From: a virus
Reading direction: 5' to 3' (one strand)
DNA length: 43,474 nucleotides
IMG/VR virus record: IMGVR_UViG_3300045016_000313
Span: 1-43,474 of that record
The position numbers were made by a program, and so were the translations under genes. The notes beneath the pieces are model-generated. The model did not search any database, was not told where the DNA came from, and saw nothing but the letters and a program-made list of their open reading frames with translations. Within the stretch, counting starts at the first letter, position 1. Each line of letters starts with the position of its first letter. Shown in pieces: positions 459 to 41,108 of the stretch.

Positions 459-1265
459 TCAGCTCATATTGGGTAAATCGTAGTTGGCAATAAGCAGTTC
501 CTTCGCCTTTTTGCCCGGCCTGCTGCCTCCTGGCCCACCGGTGCCCGCGGTGTAAGTGGTGCCTACCTCTCGCATTTGCTGGCCTTTGAAGACCTCCCGC
601 ACCTCCGGCTCATCATTGAGGCTCATTAAGAAGCGGCCTTTGAGGGATTGAAGAAGCACGGCCAACCTGTGAAAATCCTCCCGGTTGAAGATGCCCTTGC
701 CATAGAAGTTTTCGAACCCCCAATAGGGCGGATCGAGATAAAAGAAGCTGTCCGGGCCGTCGTAGCGGGCCAGGCATTCATCATAGGGGAGCTGCTCCAC
801 CACCACGTTTTCCAGGCGCAGATGCACCTCAAACAGGGTCTGCTCGGCCCGGGAGCCAAGGAAAGGCCGAGAGCTGCCGTCCAGACGCCCGGCAAAATGG
901 CAGTTGACGTCTGGCAGTTTGCCGCCGTAGCCGGTGCGCAGCAAATAATAAAACCTGACCGCCCTTTGGATATCCGTGAGGTGCCTGGGCTGGATCTCCT
1001 TAAATCGGGCGAATTCAGTGCGGCTGCGAAGACTCCAGCGCATGCATTTAAGAAACTCCTCCGGGTGGTTCTGCACGATCCGGAAGAGGTTGATCAGTTC
1101 CCCGTTAAGATCATTTAACACCTCGCAGGGGCTGGGCGTTTTGGCCAAAAGGATGGTGGCCGACCCGGCGAAAGGTTCGCAGTAAAGCCGGTGGTCGGGC
1201 AGCAGGTTGAGGATGGTTTTGGTCAGCAGGCGTTTCCCTCCCAAGTAAGGAACCAATCGGGACAT
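459..1265 (-). CDS. dam: DNA adenine N6-methyltransferase, D12/Dam type
   Basis: 268 residues, the normal size for D12-class (Dam/M.DpnII-like) methylases. The N-terminal PYLGGKR motif, the AdoMet loop EPFAGS near residues 30-35, and the catalytic DPPY at 178-181 are all visible. It transfers a methyl group from AdoMet to adenine N6, so it probably shields phage DNA from host restriction. It is the last gene before the right end, where phage Mu carries the DNA-modification gene mom. A strong Shine-Dalgarno AGGAGGT lies 8 bases before the ATG. The target site cannot be read from sequence. Confidence 0.9.
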   Translation of the reverse strand: MSRLVPYLGGKRLLTKTILNLLPDHRLYCEPFAGSATILLAKTPSPCEVLNDLNGELINLFRIVQNHPEEFLKCMRWSLRSRTEFARFKEIQPRHLTDIQRAVRFYYLLRTGYGGKLPDVNCHFAGRLDGSSRPFLGSRAEQTLFEVHLRLENVVVEQLPYDECLARYDGPDSFFYLDPPYWGFENFYGKGIFNREDFHRLAVLLQSLKGRFLMSLNDEPEVREVFKGQQMREVGTTYTAGTGGPGGSRPGKKAKELLIANYDLPNMS

Positions 1266-3757: not shown

Positions 3758-4840
3758 CTATGGCGCCGCTTCATAAAAGAATTGCCCGGCAATGGTTTTA
3801 TTCCCCGAAGCCGTCCAGGCCGTCTCCGCGGCATCCTTATAAAAGTTGACCGTGCTCGCCCCCTGGGCCAGTGAAAGCAGCCCCGCGGTCTGCCAGTTAT
3901 AATTGTCCGCGGCCCGGATCAGGGCGTGGATGTAGGTGGGGGCGTTGCTGGCAAAGGGTAGGGTGAAGCTGGCCGCGGTGCTATTGCTGACCCCGTGGAT
4001 GTAGAAGGTGACATAGACCAGGGAGCCGATCTTCTTGTAGTAAATATCCTTGTACCAGAACGAACTCCAGCCGGTGACCGTGGACGTGGCTCCATAGCTG
4101 TTCCAGGCGTAAGCTGCGGCGATGAAGGAGTCGATGGCCGCGTGGGAATTGTTGCCGATATCGGTCAGGGAAGTATGGCTTTTGGTGGTGAGATCACCCA
4201 GATCGGAGACGGTCTTGTCGATCTGCGCCCAGGTGCCGATGACGCCGGTGTGCGAGCCGGAGCCGTGGGCCGTGGGCGTCCGGGCGTCGCTGTTCCGGGG
4301 GTCGGAGTTGGTGACATATTTATTGGCGGCCGCAGGCGCGCCGTTAGTCCCGGCCAGGGCCGCTTTCTGGTCCGCCGTGGGGTCGTTGGCGTTGCTGTGG
4401 GTGGGGTAATTGAGGCCCAGTTTGCTTTCGGCAATGCCTGCGGAGGCATGCACGTCCCCGTTTTCCACCAGCTTGGCGGCCGCATCTTCCACGCCCCCGG
4501 TCACGTGTCTAAAGCCGGTGCCGGTGGGCGCGGTCACCGGCAGGTCCGCCCAGGCGCCATCCCCCCGGAAGAACTTGCTGAGATCATTGGGGGCCTTGGG
4601 GACCAGGCCGTGCCGGGCCGTGGAGACGTCCCCGGTGGTGTTGTCGGTGAGGATGAGGCCGCTTTCCGGCACGGCCGCGCCGGCGCCGCCCGTATGGTTA
4701 TGGGAGTCCCCCCCGGTGACGTGGGCCCCGGGCAGCAGGTCGTGTTGGGCCGGCAGATCGCCGGGGAAGGTGATCTGCGTAGCCCAGCCATGCGCCGCCA
4801 ACATCCCCAAAATAAGCAATAATCCAAAGAAGCGTTTCAT
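3758..4840 (-). CDS. Tail fibre-like protein with a Sec signal peptide
   Basis: 360 residues. Gly/His/Asn-rich fibre-type sequence (DSHNHTGGAG; AHGSGSHTG; SHTSLTDIGNNSHAAIDSFIAA) resembles phage tail-fibre shafts. Unusually, residues 1-20 form a clear signal peptide: MKR, a hydrophobic run FFGLLLILGMLAA, then GWA before the cleavage point. The DGR target gene upstream begins with nearly the same leader. A strong GGAAGGAG precedes the ATG. Either the protein is exported or the leader is a local duplication used otherwise. Virion location is inferred from context. Confidence 0.65.
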   Translation of the reverse strand: MKRFFGLLLILGMLAAHGWATQITFPGDLPAQHDLLPGAHVTGGDSHNHTGGAGAAVPESGLILTDNTTGDVSTARHGLVPKAPNDLSKFFRGDGAWADLPVTAPTGTGFRHVTGGVEDAAAKLVENGDVHASAGIAESKLGLNYPTHSNANDPTADQKAALAGTNGAPAAANKYVTNSDPRNSDARTPTAHGSGSHTGVIGTWAQIDKTVSDLGDLTTKSHTSLTDIGNNSHAAIDSFIAAAYAWNSYGATSTVTGWSSFWYKDIYYKKIGSLVYVTFYIHGVSNSTAASFTLPFASNAPTYIHALIRAADNYNWQTAGLLSLAQGASTVNFYKDAAETAWTASGNKTIAGQFFYEAAP

Positions 4841-4855
4841 GACTCCTTCCCTCTC

Positions 4856-4990
4856 TTAGCTCATGGTGTAATAGCGATCTATCTTTTGAATGACGGTCAT
4901 AAACGGAACCTCATTCCCATATTTCTCTAATTGGTAAATAAGTTGCCGTGTCGTCTCATAGAAATCGCCGAGGGAAGCCTTCGCTACTCG
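4856..4990 (-). pseudogene. Short open frame downstream of the DGR template, possible remnant
   Basis: A 44-codon frame with no good start (TAG at 4991-4993, first internal ATG late) encodes GDFYETTRQLIYQLEKYG and onwards, ending in TMS. The sequence looks protein-like and amphipathic helical, yet it is no known RT or Avd segment that I can identify. In phage DGRs the accessory protein and RT genes lie in this neighbourhood, so it may be what is left of a deleted gene. That is speculative. Confidence 0.3.
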
Positions 4991-5025
4991 CTACTAACTT
5001 CCCCCGGCCTCCGCCTGGTGTTTTG

Positions 5026-5042
5026 CCGCCCCGAAGGGCGAC
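5026..5042 (-). other. UUCG-capped hairpin after the DGR template
   Basis: On the - strand CGCCC-TTCG-GGGCG forms a 5-bp GC stem with a UUCG tetraloop, extendable by a wobble pair. It lies about 40 bases downstream of the template repeat and could stabilise the template RNA 3' portion. No T tract follows, so it is not a typical terminator. Confidence 0.4.
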
Positions 5043-5078
5043 ATGGCCGGGAGGCCCAGCCAGGAGTCTCCGCCCTGT

Positions 5079-5193
5079 CTCCGTGCACCTGCGGGTGCCG
5101 ATATTCGAATTCGCATTCCAGCGATAGTTATTCGCATCCGGCACCGGGACCTGCAATTCGTGCCATTATTCCAATTGCCGCCCGCCAGGAGCT
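5079..5193 (-). repeat. DGR template repeat (TR)
   Basis: 115 bases matching the variable repeat at 5252-5367 except for 16 substitutions and one missing base. On the - strand, 15 of the 16 substituted positions are A in this copy, changed to T, G or C in the other. That is the hallmark of adenine-specific mutagenic retrohoming. Translated in frame it reads LLAGGNWNNGTNC...NNYRWNANSNIG, with the AAT/AAC codons typical of templates. The lost base is in CGG-ATGCG versus CGGAATGCG. The template is non-coding and lies between the target gene and the next fibre gene. Confidence 0.9.
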
Positions 5194-5197
5194 ACCC

Positions 5198-5242
5198 ATC
5201 GACCCCCCAGCCGAAACTCGCGCCCGCGAGCCGCGAGCCGGT
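5198..5242 (-). other. GC-rich hairpin region between VR and TR
   Basis: Just past the target gene stop, the - strand can fold as CTCGCG...CGCGAG around 5219-5239. Known phage DGRs carry a hairpin shortly after the variable repeat that helps target recognition. Equivalence here is inferred only. Confidence 0.35.
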
Positions 5243-6430
5243 TTATTTTGGCTCCGCGCACCCGCGGGCGCCGAAAGTCGAAGCCGCAAACCAGCGAAAG
5301 TAATTCGCATTCCGGCCCCGGGACCCGCAATTCGCGCCATCATTCCAATAGCCGCCCGCCAGGAGCTGGGTGTTGCCACAACCGTTGGTTCCGAAAGTAT
5401 AGAAAGACCCCTTGGCGCCAGCCAGATCGATCCATATTCCGGCAGTTCCATCATCTAACCTGGCCCCGGGAGTCCGCAGCCACTGCCACATGGCGCCGCA
5501 GGTGTCTTCACAGCCAATGTTGCTGATCATCCGCCGGCTTGCGGTGTCGACATGCCCCCCGGTCGTATTCGGATCGGCACTGCCGGCAATATTGGTTTCT
5601 TCGTTGCTGCCGGCAGCAATAATTTGAAATTCATCATCTTCCAGCAATCTTTTGCTCACCGCCGCCAAGTCGTCGACAAAGTCCATCCAATTGCGGCTAT
5701 CGGTGATCACCGCCCCATAAACGCTGGCGCTGTTGGCCCCGGTGCCGCTCATCAAATAAATATCGACCCAGAGCTTGGCCTGCTCGGACCAGACCATGCC
5801 CTCCGGGCTGCACCGGGGCCGGTGGTTCAAACTCCAGACGCTGGCGGGGAGAATCGCACCGGCAACATAGCCGGACAAGGGATGGCCGGAGATCGTCCCG
5901 ACGTCGGCGCAGAGGGTGTGAAACCCGCCGATTTTCCGGCTGTTGCTGGCGTTGTAGCCATTCGGATAGGTGGTATTAAGAGAAGCGATTATTTTGGCGT
6001 AATAGCCGGTCTGCTGACAGGCGTAAACATAGTAATTAGTACCCGGGGCTAAGGAGGTAAAACTGCTATCCCTATTGGCCGCCGCCGTCGGGTCCCAGTT
6101 GGACTGGGCGGCTATCAGATATCCGTAGCCGTTGCCCCCGACATTAATCGCCCCTTCCGGGATGTTCAGAGTATTGCCGCTGCCTTTGGCCAGATTTTCG
6201 GAGAAACTATAAAATCCCGCGGCGGCAGCAGGGGCCCGGCGCACCAGGTAATCGAGGGAGGTGGGTACGGTGGAGTTATCCACCCCCACCTTGGCTTCCA
6301 GGTTATTGAGGTGGGCGGAAACAATTTCTGTAACACCGTCAACGGCATTAGTCAGATTCTCCGGAAATGCAGAAAACGCCGGGTTAGCCAGCATTCCGAA
6401 GATAAGCAACAGAGCCAGAAAACGTTTCAT
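5243..6430 (-). CDS. DGR target protein: C-type-lectin-like tail/receptor protein with signal peptide
   Basis: 395 residues. A signal peptide (MKRFLALLLIFGMLA...AFSA) is followed by a coiled or shaft segment. A C-terminal CLec/FGE-like domain follows, carrying the conserved stretches TDSRNWMDFVDDL, EEFQ-type DDEFQIIAAGSNEETN, GGHVDTASRRMISNIG and MWQWLRTPG. The last 41 residues (355-395) are the variable region. VR-encoded changes relative to the template affect residues 361, 364, 366, 369, 372, 377, 378, 381, 383, 385, 386, 388, 390 and 392, the expected ligand-facing positions. It probably determines receptor binding, as Mtd does in BPP-1. A strong AGGAGGAG precedes the ATG. The Sec leader is odd for a virion protein. 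Confidence 0.85.
   Translation of the reverse strand: MKRFLALLLIFGMLANPAFSAFPENLTNAVDGVTEIVSAHLNNLEAKVGVDNSTVPTSLDYLVRRAPAAAAGFYSFSENLAKGSGNTLNIPEGAINVGGNGYGYLIAAQSNWDPTAAANRDSSFTSLAPGTNYYVYACQQTGYYAKIIASLNTTYPNGYNASNSRKIGGFHTLCADVGTISGHPLSGYVAGAILPASVWSLNHRPRCSPEGMVWSEQAKLWVDIYLMSGTGANSASVYGAVITDSRNWMDFVDDLAAVSKRLLEDDEFQIIAAGSNEETNIAGSADPNTTGGHVDTASRRMISNIGCEDTCGAMWQWLRTPGARLDDGTAGIWIDLAGAKGSFYTFGTNGCGNTQLLAGGYWNDGANCGSRGRNANYFRWFAASTFGARGCAEPK
5252..5367 (-). repeat. DGR variable repeat (VR)
   Basis: 116 bases at the 3' end of the target gene, homologous to the template at 5079-5193 (offset 173-174). 15 of 16 substitutions fall on template adenines: 5 A-to-G from Thr/Arg/Asn first positions and the rest A-to-T, G or C in Asn, Tyr and Ile codons. 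The sixteenth is T-to-G (Cys to Gly 372). Homology begins at AGCTCCTGG and ends at GCGGAG just before the stop. The GC-rich last 20 bases are a plausible IMH. Confidence 0.9.
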
Positions 6431-38043: not shown

Positions 38044-38853
38044 TCATTTCCGCGTCTCCACCAGCGGCGCCAGCAGGCTTCTCAGCACCGCGTCCACGTC
38101 GGCCAGGTCCAGCCGGGCGTCCCCCTTGGCCTGGGCCTTCTGGAGGCAGCCGGCCACCGCGTTCTCGACGAACCGGAAATCCCCCTTTGCCCAGGTGTGC
38201 AGCTTAATTACCGCTTCCCGCGTCAACACCAGGCCCGCGGCCTCCTTAGCCAGCTTGGCCACGTCCGCGGGCTGGTTGTCCTTGAACTCCACCGCCTGCT
38301 TGGTCCGGGAGGCCACCTGGCGCTTTTCCTTGAGCATGAACTCTAATCTTTCCTCGCCGATCAGGACCACCGGCGCGCCGGACATCTCGGTTAAGTCCCG
38401 GACGATCTCCAGGTGGCCGGGCAGGCGGTCGAGACGGTGAAAATCGTCCAGCACCACGGGCCGGTGGGGGTGGGCCTCCATCACGGAGAGCACCTTTTCA
38501 AAACACGGGGCCTTGCGGTGGGGGATGTTATCGCTCTTGACGCCCACGGCCTTGCACAGGGCCCTTAAGAATTCCAGTTCGCTGTTGGCCCAGACCCAGA
38601 GACACTCCAGATAGGGGATTTCTTCCGGCTGCCGGGAGATGTGGGTTTTCACGCAATAGGTCTTGCCCACCCCGGCCCGGCCCCAGATGCCCATGAGCCG
38701 GGGTTTGCCCCGGGCCAGGCCCAGGGCGTTCCAGGCCGCCAGAAAGGAGCGCACGTTCTCGGTGTTGACGAACACCGGCACCAGTTCTTTCCAGGGCTTG
38801 ACCTTCTCAGTGGCACCGGCCTCTGGCCGGTGCTCCTTTACTGCTTGCGTCAT
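38044..38853 (-). CDS. B: Transposition ATPase B
   Basis: 269 residues, AAA+ type. Walker A GRAGVGKT at 58-65, Walker B PVVLDD with Asp136-Asp137, sensor-like VVLIGEE at 162-168, C-terminal helical part. Like MuB it should bind target DNA, direct target choice and stimulate the transposase. It is shorter than MuB (312 aa), which has an extra N-terminal HTH; here only about 50 residues precede the Walker A motif. Overlaps the transposase end by ATGA. Confidence 0.9.
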   Translation of the reverse strand: MTQAVKEHRPEAGATEKVKPWKELVPVFVNTENVRSFLAAWNALGLARGKPRLMGIWGRAGVGKTYCVKTHISRQPEEIPYLECLWVWANSELEFLRALCKAVGVKSDNIPHRKAPCFEKVLSVMEAHPHRPVVLDDFHRLDRLPGHLEIVRDLTEMSGAPVVLIGEERLEFMLKEKRQVASRTKQAVEFKDNQPADVAKLAKEAAGLVLTREAVIKLHTWAKGDFRFVENAVAGCLQKAQAKGDARLDLADVDAVLRSLLAPLVETRK

Positions 38854-41108
38854 CTTGCCTGCGCCTCCTTCACCTCCAGGGAGAGGAACAACCTCTTCTC
38901 CTGGTAATAATCCGCCAGGGCCTGGTATTCGGGCGAATACTCGAAATAGCGCATGAAGGCCATCTCCTCCGGCGGCAGCTCCCGGCCCTGGGCCTCGTCC
39001 TCCAGGTCCCGCTCGTAACGCTCGTCATCCCGGAGCCCCCTCCGCCGCTCCCAGTAAGCCGCGGCCTCCCGTTCCCGGTCCTCCTCCTGCCAGCGCTCCC
39101 TGGCGGCCAGTTGTTTTTCCAGGTCCCCGGGCGCGGGCAGTTGCACCAGTGGTGCCGGAGGTGCAGGCTTTCCAGCCTGCACACCACCCGCCTGCACACC
39201 GCTGAGCTTCAGCCGCTCCCGGGTTTCCGGCACCACCACCGCGTCCGCAAAGGCCCGGGCGCTGGCCTGGGTCTGCTTCAGCAGCCCCAGTTTCTGCCGG
39301 ATCTGCTCCTGCACCAATCTTTGATCTTCCGGCGACCCGGTGACGAAGGCGATGGGGTGAACCTTGGGCCTAAACGGGGCCTCACAGATGAACTCCCCGT
39401 CCAGGCCGTAAATCCACACGGCCCGGAGGTCGTGGTGGTCATAGCGCACCACCACCTGATGCCGCCGGCCGTAGAGTTCTTCCGAGTAATAGTGGCCTTT
39501 GACCCCCGGCACCGTCACCCCGTTCCTATGCAGCGTCCTGACCGTCGCCTCCAGCATCAGGTGCCGCAATTTGCCGGGATCCAGGTCCGAATCAAAGCCT
39601 TCCCGGCGCCGCTCGAAATATTCTTCCAGGACTTGTCCGGGCGACCTGCCCGCCAGGTGGCTCTTCTTCTGGGGCCGGGCCGCGTAATCGTCCATCCAGG
39701 CCGCCAGCAACTGGTGGGCCTCCTCCAGGGTGGGAATCCTGCCCCCGGTGGCCTTTTCATGCACCCTGCGGAGTAGCTTCTCCCCGCCCCGGCGCCAGGC
39801 TGGTTTCTTCTCGATGGAGGTGCCGGTGTAAGAGGGCAGCAGCCGTTCAAATTCCCCCAGGTATTTGAACCAGCGCTCCACCACCTTGGACTGGGCGTGA
39901 TATTTCCAGGCCACGATAGTCTTGGCCCCGGCCCGCTCGAACATCCCCGGCAGACCCGACTCCGCCAAATTGCTGCTGAAATATTTGGCCCCGAAGGCCT
40001 TGCCGTTGTCGATGTAGACCGCTTTGGGGAATTTTCCCAGAAACAGGCACGCCCGCCTGAAAGCCGCGGAGATGGCCCGGGTGTTTTCCTCCGGCATGAT
40101 CTCCCAGCCTGCGGGGTAGTTGGATTTCCAGTCCTCGAAGACGATCAGGGTCATGCGCTTGGGTTTGCCGGTGAAGGGATTGAGGATCTCGAAGTTCAGC
40201 CGGTGGCCGTCTGCCACCAGGCAGTCCCCCACCTCCAGGAAATCGGTGTCCCGCTCCAAATAAGGGAGATTCTGCTCATGCAGCGCCTTCTCCCCCTGGC
40301 GGTAGAAGACCCACAGGTCATTGAACCGGTCCCGGAAGTCCTCCAAAAATAAGCGGTAGGTATCGTCGCTCTGCTCAACAGGGACGCCCTTGCACGCCAT
40401 GATGGTCTTGGCGGTGCGGATGGCTTCGGTGAGGTGGGGCTGATTTTGGCTCAAGGCCGCGGCCAGCAAAATCTTTCCCTGCTCGGAGGAGATGAAGTCT
40501 TTGACCTCTTTCCTTTCCCCGCCCAGCCGGTGCCTCCCCCGGCGATGGTCGCCGTGCCCGGAGGCCAGGGCCGTTATCGGATCGCTGCCCCGTTTTAATT
40601 TCAGGGCCCAGCGTTCGATGGTGGGAAAGGTCACCGCCCCCAGAAATTGATAGAGTTGGGGATACGCGCCCTGCAGCCCCAGGTTGTAGGCTGCCAGAAA
40701 ATCCTGCTTGGCCCCCAGGGTGCCGCCGCCATTCTTTTTCTCCACCGCGTACCGGAGGTAATGCTTGACCAGGTCGGCCCGGTGCAGGGCCTGGCGCACC
40801 TTCCAATCGGGCAGTGCGGGCGCCTCTGCCGGTATCGCCGGGACCATCGACCTATCATCCGGGACCGGGGCTGGAAGGGTGGCTGACGCAGTCAACCCGT
40901 TGACCGCCTCGCCCACCTCCCAGGCCTGCAGCGCCCGGCGCACCTCCGGAGGCAAGGGGGGGAACGGGTAAAGCTTGGCCCCACCCCGGCCCTTCCTCTC
41001 CAGGGCGGGCCATTTTTCTTCTTCTGCCCGCAATTGCACCCATCTTGGGGTTGACCCCAGGGCCTGGGCGATCTCGGCGGCGGTGTAGTTTTTATCGCCG
41101 GCGGCCAT
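38850..41108 (-). CDS. A: Mu-type DDE transposase A
   Basis: 752 residues. N-terminal winged helix (YTAAEIAQALGSTPRWVQLRAEEEKWP, residues 8-35), end-binding helical domains, then the RNase H-like core. Catalytic residues are Asp300 (CLVADGH), Asp367 (VYIDNG) and Glu411 (KVVERWF); the Asp-Asp spacing of 67 equals MuA's. C-terminal activation domain, with a family A repeat coding GVQAGKPAPP near residue 650 (39158-39186). It joins the phage ends to target DNA with a 5-bp stagger, matching the CCGGT duplication. Confidence 0.95.
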   Translation of the reverse strand: MAAGDKNYTAAEIAQALGSTPRWVQLRAEEEKWPALERKGRGGAKLYPFPPLPPEVRRALQAWEVGEAVNGLTASATLPAPVPDDRSMVPAIPAEAPALPDWKVRQALHRADLVKHYLRYAVEKKNGGGTLGAKQDFLAAYNLGLQGAYPQLYQFLGAVTFPTIERWALKLKRGSDPITALASGHGDHRRGRHRLGGERKEVKDFISSEQGKILLAAALSQNQPHLTEAIRTAKTIMACKGVPVEQSDDTYRLFLEDFRDRFNDLWVFYRQGEKALHEQNLPYLERDTDFLEVGDCLVADGHRLNFEILNPFTGKPKRMTLIVFEDWKSNYPAGWEIMPEENTRAISAAFRRACLFLGKFPKAVYIDNGKAFGAKYFSSNLAESGLPGMFERAGAKTIVAWKYHAQSKVVERWFKYLGEFERLLPSYTGTSIEKKPAWRRGGEKLLRRVHEKATGGRIPTLEEAHQLLAAWMDDYAARPQKKSHLAGRSPGQVLEEYFERRREGFDSDLDPGKLRHLMLEATVRTLHRNGVTVPGVKGHYYSEELYGRRHQVVVRYDHHDLRAVWIYGLDGEFICEAPFRPKVHPIAFVTGSPEDQRLVQEQIRQKLGLLKQTQASARAFADAVVVPETRERLKLSGVQAGGVQAGKPAPPAPLVQLPAPGDLEKQLAARERWQEEDREREAAAYWERRRGLRDDERYERDLEDEAQGRELPPEEMAFMRYFEYSPEYQALADYYQEKRLFLSLEVKEAQAR
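39158..39186. repeat. Family A palindromic repeat in the transposase gene
   Basis: GTGCAGGCTTTCCAGCCTGC, in frame as VQAGKPAP. Confidence 0.85.

Follow-up and report, generated by a model that had tools for sequence, protein, structure and literature searches.

A probable fossil of a diversity-generating retroelement at the tail-tip gene of a Mu-like phage, and recurrent loss of the reverse transcriptase among its relatives

The DNA analysed here, which we call the window, is a single virus contig of 43,474 bases (IMG/VR record IMGVR_UViG_3300045016_000313). It carries a template repeat (TR) and a variable repeat (VR) at a tail gene, followed by the remains of the genes for a reverse transcriptase (RT) and an accessory protein. 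The features are as follows.

38850..41108, minus strand: Mu-like transposase gene (phrog_310, E 7.1e-93; Mu-transpos_C, E 7.4e-15)
38044..38853, minus strand: gene for a MuB-like DNA transposition protein (phrog_296, E 8.6e-37)
5243..6430, minus strand: target gene for an Mtd-like tail protein of 395 aa (Pfam, PHROG, tblastn and PDB profile matches)
5249..5367, minus strand: VR, at the C-terminus of the Mtd-like gene, placed by TR/VR alignment
5076..5193, minus strand: TR, non-coding, placed by the same alignment
4960..5075, minus strand: spacer RNA, from TR to the old RT start, retained, with the ACTCCTGGCTGG motif and covariation
4934..4959, minus strand: residual 5′ end of the RT gene, MRRHGNLFT, ATG at 4959, like the RT starts of intact relatives
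4934..4942, minus strand: deletion junction, CTTATTTAC, fitting both the RT start and the accessory codons
4856..4942, minus strand: residual accessory gene, its last 28 codons (LIYQLEKYGNEVPFMTVIQKIDRYYTMS) and stop, recognized by similarity to intact accessory ends
3758..4840, minus strand: downstream neighbour gene, tail-fibre-like by eye, with a signal-peptide-like N-terminus

The presence of MuA-type transposase and MuB-type ATPase genes in the record agrees with an earlier reading of this DNA as that of a Mu-like phage. The target had been proposed to be a tail-tip protein, and its matches identify it as a receptor-binding tail protein homologous to Mtd of Bordetella phage BPP-1. These matches include Pfam mtd_2nd (E 2.4e-21), the tail family phrog_11262 of PHROG, BPP-1 Mtd itself by tblastn (27.6%, E 7e-12) and, by profile, the solved Mtd structure PDB 1yu4 (E 1.6e-24). 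In a diversity-generating retroelement (DGR), RT copies the RNA of TR and makes errors at adenines, and the resulting cDNA replaces VR; this is established, also for Mtd. As in a complete DGR, VR in the window forms the end of an open reading frame with a C-terminal lectin-like domain. A scan of 395 genomes from the phylum of the host of L042 (relatives are denoted by L numbers) gave a full Mtd match in only one. The neighbouring gene (3758..4840) had no family match in the Pfam and PHROG comparison. Both adjacent tail-tip genes (6430-5243 and 4840-3758, minus strand) have Sec signal-peptide-like starts, MKRFLALLLIFGMLANPAFSA and MKRFFGLLLILGMLAAHGWA, and the Mtd homologues of L056, L127, L140, L158 and L165 start comparably; such starts are unusual among phage tail proteins. 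A gene for a D12-class adenine DNA methyltransferase lies close to one contig end (window 459-1265, minus strand).

Along the minus strand, the alignment of TR (5193-5076) with VR (5367-5249) spans 119 columns and contains 17 substitutions. Sixteen of them fall at template adenines (7 A>G, 6 A>T and 3 A>C), of which TR has 30, and chance would place 16 or more of the 17 at A with a probability of ~4e-9. This bias bears out the earlier proposal that the pair originated by adenine-directed mutagenic retrohoming. The lone non-A substitution is a T>G at 5143. TR is also one A short between 5138 and 5137, where VR and the TRs of relatives have that base; its absence is known from one metagenomic contig. 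Because of this one-base gap, the repeats had been given as intervals of 115 and 116 bases in the initial annotation, and inside them its count of 15 substitutions at template-strand adenines and one T-to-G is correct. The changes were also described there as clustering in AAY codons; such codons are among those changed, but so are ACN, AGG, TAT and ATC codons. Since copying of the gapped TR would frameshift mtd, productive retrohoming has probably stopped since the gap arose. No repeat copies besides TR and VR were found in the window. An exact search of viral contigs with the window TR gave no match, and the window phage therefore lacks a second copy as comparison partner.

A structured spacer RNA lies 3′ of TR, as it does in a complete DGR, with a helix at about 5043-5024 and a covarying hairpin at about 5007-4968 (~ten pairs). 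Across 34 loci, window included, 91.8% of cells pair compared with 67.8% when shuffled, and double changes occur in 15 of the 17 spacer base pairs. Comparison of the spacer RNA with Rfam gave no match above chance. The counterpart spacer of BPP-1 has two roles, recruitment of the RT-Avd complex and priming of cDNA synthesis (PMC12875486). As read from the sequence, the deficit of the window is one of the enzyme, and the template RNA is kept. The spacer RNA (window 5075-4960, minus strand) could be used to search for DGRs independently of RT.

TR and a full RT are present in 53 loci sharing the Mtd target. The gene order in these intact relatives is mtd-VR, TR, structured spacer RNA, RT and a gene for an accessory protein of ~100 aa. 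Their RT is about 340-370 aa long, carries VPIGNYTSQ and YxDD motifs and matches phrog_1423 (E 8.8e-122). The accessory protein has a conserved end such as EKYQDEIPFLTVIKKIDRYYTFS; its gene is found beside the DGR RT in L041 (L041:2002-2307) and some 60 relatives. No match to it was found in Pfam, NCBIfam or PDB sequences, and PHROG gave only a weak match to a family of unknown function. Its predicted structure (pLDDT 84.5) has an OB-like topology with weak fold matches. In these DGRs, the accessory protein may substitute for Avd.

No match to the RT family PF00078 (RVT_1) was found in the whole 43.5-kb record. RVT_1 was present in 12 of the 33 relative records first found via the target protein, some of the others being short fragments. 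Of the RT gene that a complete DGR has nearby, only the first codons are left in the window, and of the accessory gene only the last 28 codons; both remnants stand where a DGR fossil would be expected to have them. The residual MRRHGNLFT corresponds to the RT start MKRHGNLFTR of L041, and the accessory remnant is 61-71% identical to accessory-protein ends in several intact relatives (E 5.5e-10 for L041). The RT start abuts the accessory end without an interval, exactly at the RT position of the relatives, and comparison with L041 gives a deletion of ~1.2 kb, known from one metagenomic contig. The CTTATTTAC at the junction is probably a microhomology, its overlap being deduced from divergent relatives. 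The exact breakpoint is likewise an estimate, since identity in the target protein reaches only ~66% among the closest relatives.

Our comparisons also support ongoing DGR activity in the intact relatives, as judged from closely related contigs. L001 and L003, which come from different metagenomes, differ at 18 positions in 5.76 kb, all of them in VR and all at TR adenines. L004 differs from these two by 16 and 17 TR-adenine changes in VR with TR unchanged, and any further listed differences occur solely near the far upstream limit of the region compared. The initial annotation had named variation of VR at TR-adenine columns alone as the mark of activity, and this pattern is found in L001, L003 and L004. 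Similarly, 18 of the 20 differing sites between L048 and L049 (960 sites compared) are in the VR zone. The target-bearing contigs L011, L012, L016 and L017, three of which belong to the L001 phage, stop within VR or near it, as is expected if VR diversity breaks assembly.

Non-A differences between TR and VR are more frequent in RT-less pairs (8/493) than in RT-bearing pairs (17/3519; p 0.008, small numbers), as decay predicts. We considered the T>G of the window as a sign of such decay and rejected it: intact loci show T>G too (9/1074 T), so a single T>G cannot date the loss of RT. In RT-bearing pairs, changes at T (12/1074) exceed those at C and G (5/2445, p 0.0008). The rare non-adenine changes are mostly T>G (9 of the 12 at T) and frequently adjoin mutated adenines, which may point to slippage or to a further kind of error made by these RTs.

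Loss of RT extends beyond the window. Wider scans gave 135 non-redundant loci, and those with an Mtd C-terminus were classed. RT is absent from 24 of the 75 testable Mtd loci, or about a third, and present in 51. On a tree of the conserved core of the target protein from these 75 loci, the RT-less loci are scattered, with 20 label changes compared with a shuffled mean of 20.6, and at least 11 changes are forced by well-supported branches. The window branches alone inside a group of 33. Twelve Mtd loci without a full RT, the window among them, hold remnants, and their breakpoints vary. In L005, RT runs to about codon 43; in L007, RT codon 39 is joined in frame to the accessory end; and in L031 and L100, the deletion reaches from inside the spacer to about accessory codon 38. 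The target is fused to the accessory gene and TR is gone in L019 and L157, L115 has a partial TR only, L130 has lost TR and RT with the accessory gene retained, and RT is truncated in L161, L167 and L179. At junctions compared with intact relatives, the overlaps are 7 bases (L007/L142), 4 bases (L019/L014, with flanks 94-98% identical) and 9 bases (L031/L049). Overlaps of 4 to 9 bases are as expected for deletion between short repeats. About ten RT-less loci have no scar, and there a loss is our inference. These comparisons are evidence that RT loss in the Mtd family is recurrent, being apparently frequent and shallow. In a different DGR (L071:303-760), the RT catalytic core is deleted in frame with the start and end kept. 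In L105 (L105:1-327), the end of a TnpB-like ORF stands directly upstream of an accessory-gene remnant, which suggests replacement of RT by an IS605-type element.

We therefore regard the window pair as very probably a DGR fossil, its RT removed by a deletion of ~1.2 kb and its VR probably frozen. In the ancestor, error-prone copying of TR would have replaced the VR of mtd and changed the receptor-binding face of the tail tip. The internal deletion visible in the sequence, probably between short similar sequences, fused the RT start to the accessory end and took away the enzyme. The loss of one base from TR presumably followed the deletion, and the present VR would be a frozen variant under ordinary selection. 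The initial annotation took the element for a working DGR; this was not supported: the record lacks RT, a scar marks the RT position of 53 relatives, and TR has a frameshift. Its view that host range is diversified would hold for the past and probably not for the present, unless an RT acts in trans.

Such action in trans, by the RT of a co-resident intact phage or of the host on a satellite DGR, would mean that the element still works. The intact spacer RNA and the open mtd, which would be needed for it as well, count against the fossil reading, and the window retains TR along with the spacer hairpin and mtd. Further, nearly all TR/VR differences of several RT-less relatives (L007, L100 and L031) are at A, and many intact relatives have an RNA of this type. 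However, the record lacks RT, copying of a TR that is one base short would put mtd out of frame, and RT-less loci form no lineages on the tree, as a stable satellite would. We consider trans action unlikely in the window. For RT-less cassettes in general, the corresponding idea is that they are satellite DGRs of phages that have dropped the enzyme but retain TR, the RNA and the target; RT-bearing phages sharing the cell would diversify them in trans, giving the population a common mutator. This we hold to be quite improbable. Alternatively, the population could have the full cassette, with the contig misjoined by an assembly error. Only a single contig is available, VR diversity disturbs assembly, and several contigs of the L001 phage end in or near VR; yet the junction overlaps of 4 to 9 bases are far below assembly word lengths, and different scars occur in twelve loci from different contigs, which makes this explanation very improbable. 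Ordinary gene duplication followed by drift, to which the one non-A substitution and the one indel could be ascribed, has scarcely any probability and is excluded by the base bias (16/17, P ~4e-9) and by the anatomy shared with RT-bearing relatives: the TR of the window is non-coding, occupies the place that TR has in these DGRs and precedes the DGR spacer RNA.

The DGR fossil of the window can be compared with known systems. Like the DGR of BPP-1 (mtd, avd, TR, brt), it has a homologous Mtd target with VR at the C-terminus, adenine-directed changes and a structured spacer RNA after TR, and it serves a phage tail tip. In BPP-1, avd lies between VR and TR, whereas the intact relatives of the window have a gene for a ~100-aa accessory protein (OB-like by prediction) after RT; and unlike the BPP-1 element, that of the window has its RT deleted and belongs to a Mu-like phage. 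Partial DGRs without RT, comprising target, VR, cis elements and adenine-directed changes, were described from DUSEL4 Nanoarchaeota, for which a fossil or remote diversification was offered (PMC4372165, Paul et al. 2015). In comparison with these, the window also keeps TR, its RT and accessory remnants show the deletion, and this type of loss recurs within one phage target family. In the open-licence literature on Mu-like phages with DGRs and on RT-less or orphan DGRs, only the nanoarchaeal fragments were found as precedent. The proposal of an RT-less fossil was thus already known, and what is new here is the deletion scar itself and the recurrence of RT loss. A global metagenome survey (PMC8144416, Roux et al. 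2021) accepted only repeats with an RT gene no more than 1 kb away, and its 'inactive' DGRs are those without VR variation. The window belongs to the same class as the DGRs surveyed; nevertheless, elements like it fall outside that survey because an RT near the repeat was required.

In conclusion, DGRs are usually detected via their RT, and RT-less elements therefore go uncounted. For one case, the question of fossil or remote diversification raised in 2015 is answered by a deletion. Comparing sister phages with and without RT makes it possible to measure what programmed diversity costs and what it brings. Our findings suggest that phages often abandon targeted mutation permanently, perhaps with a successful receptor-binding variant becoming fixed, and that lineages which have done so do not last.
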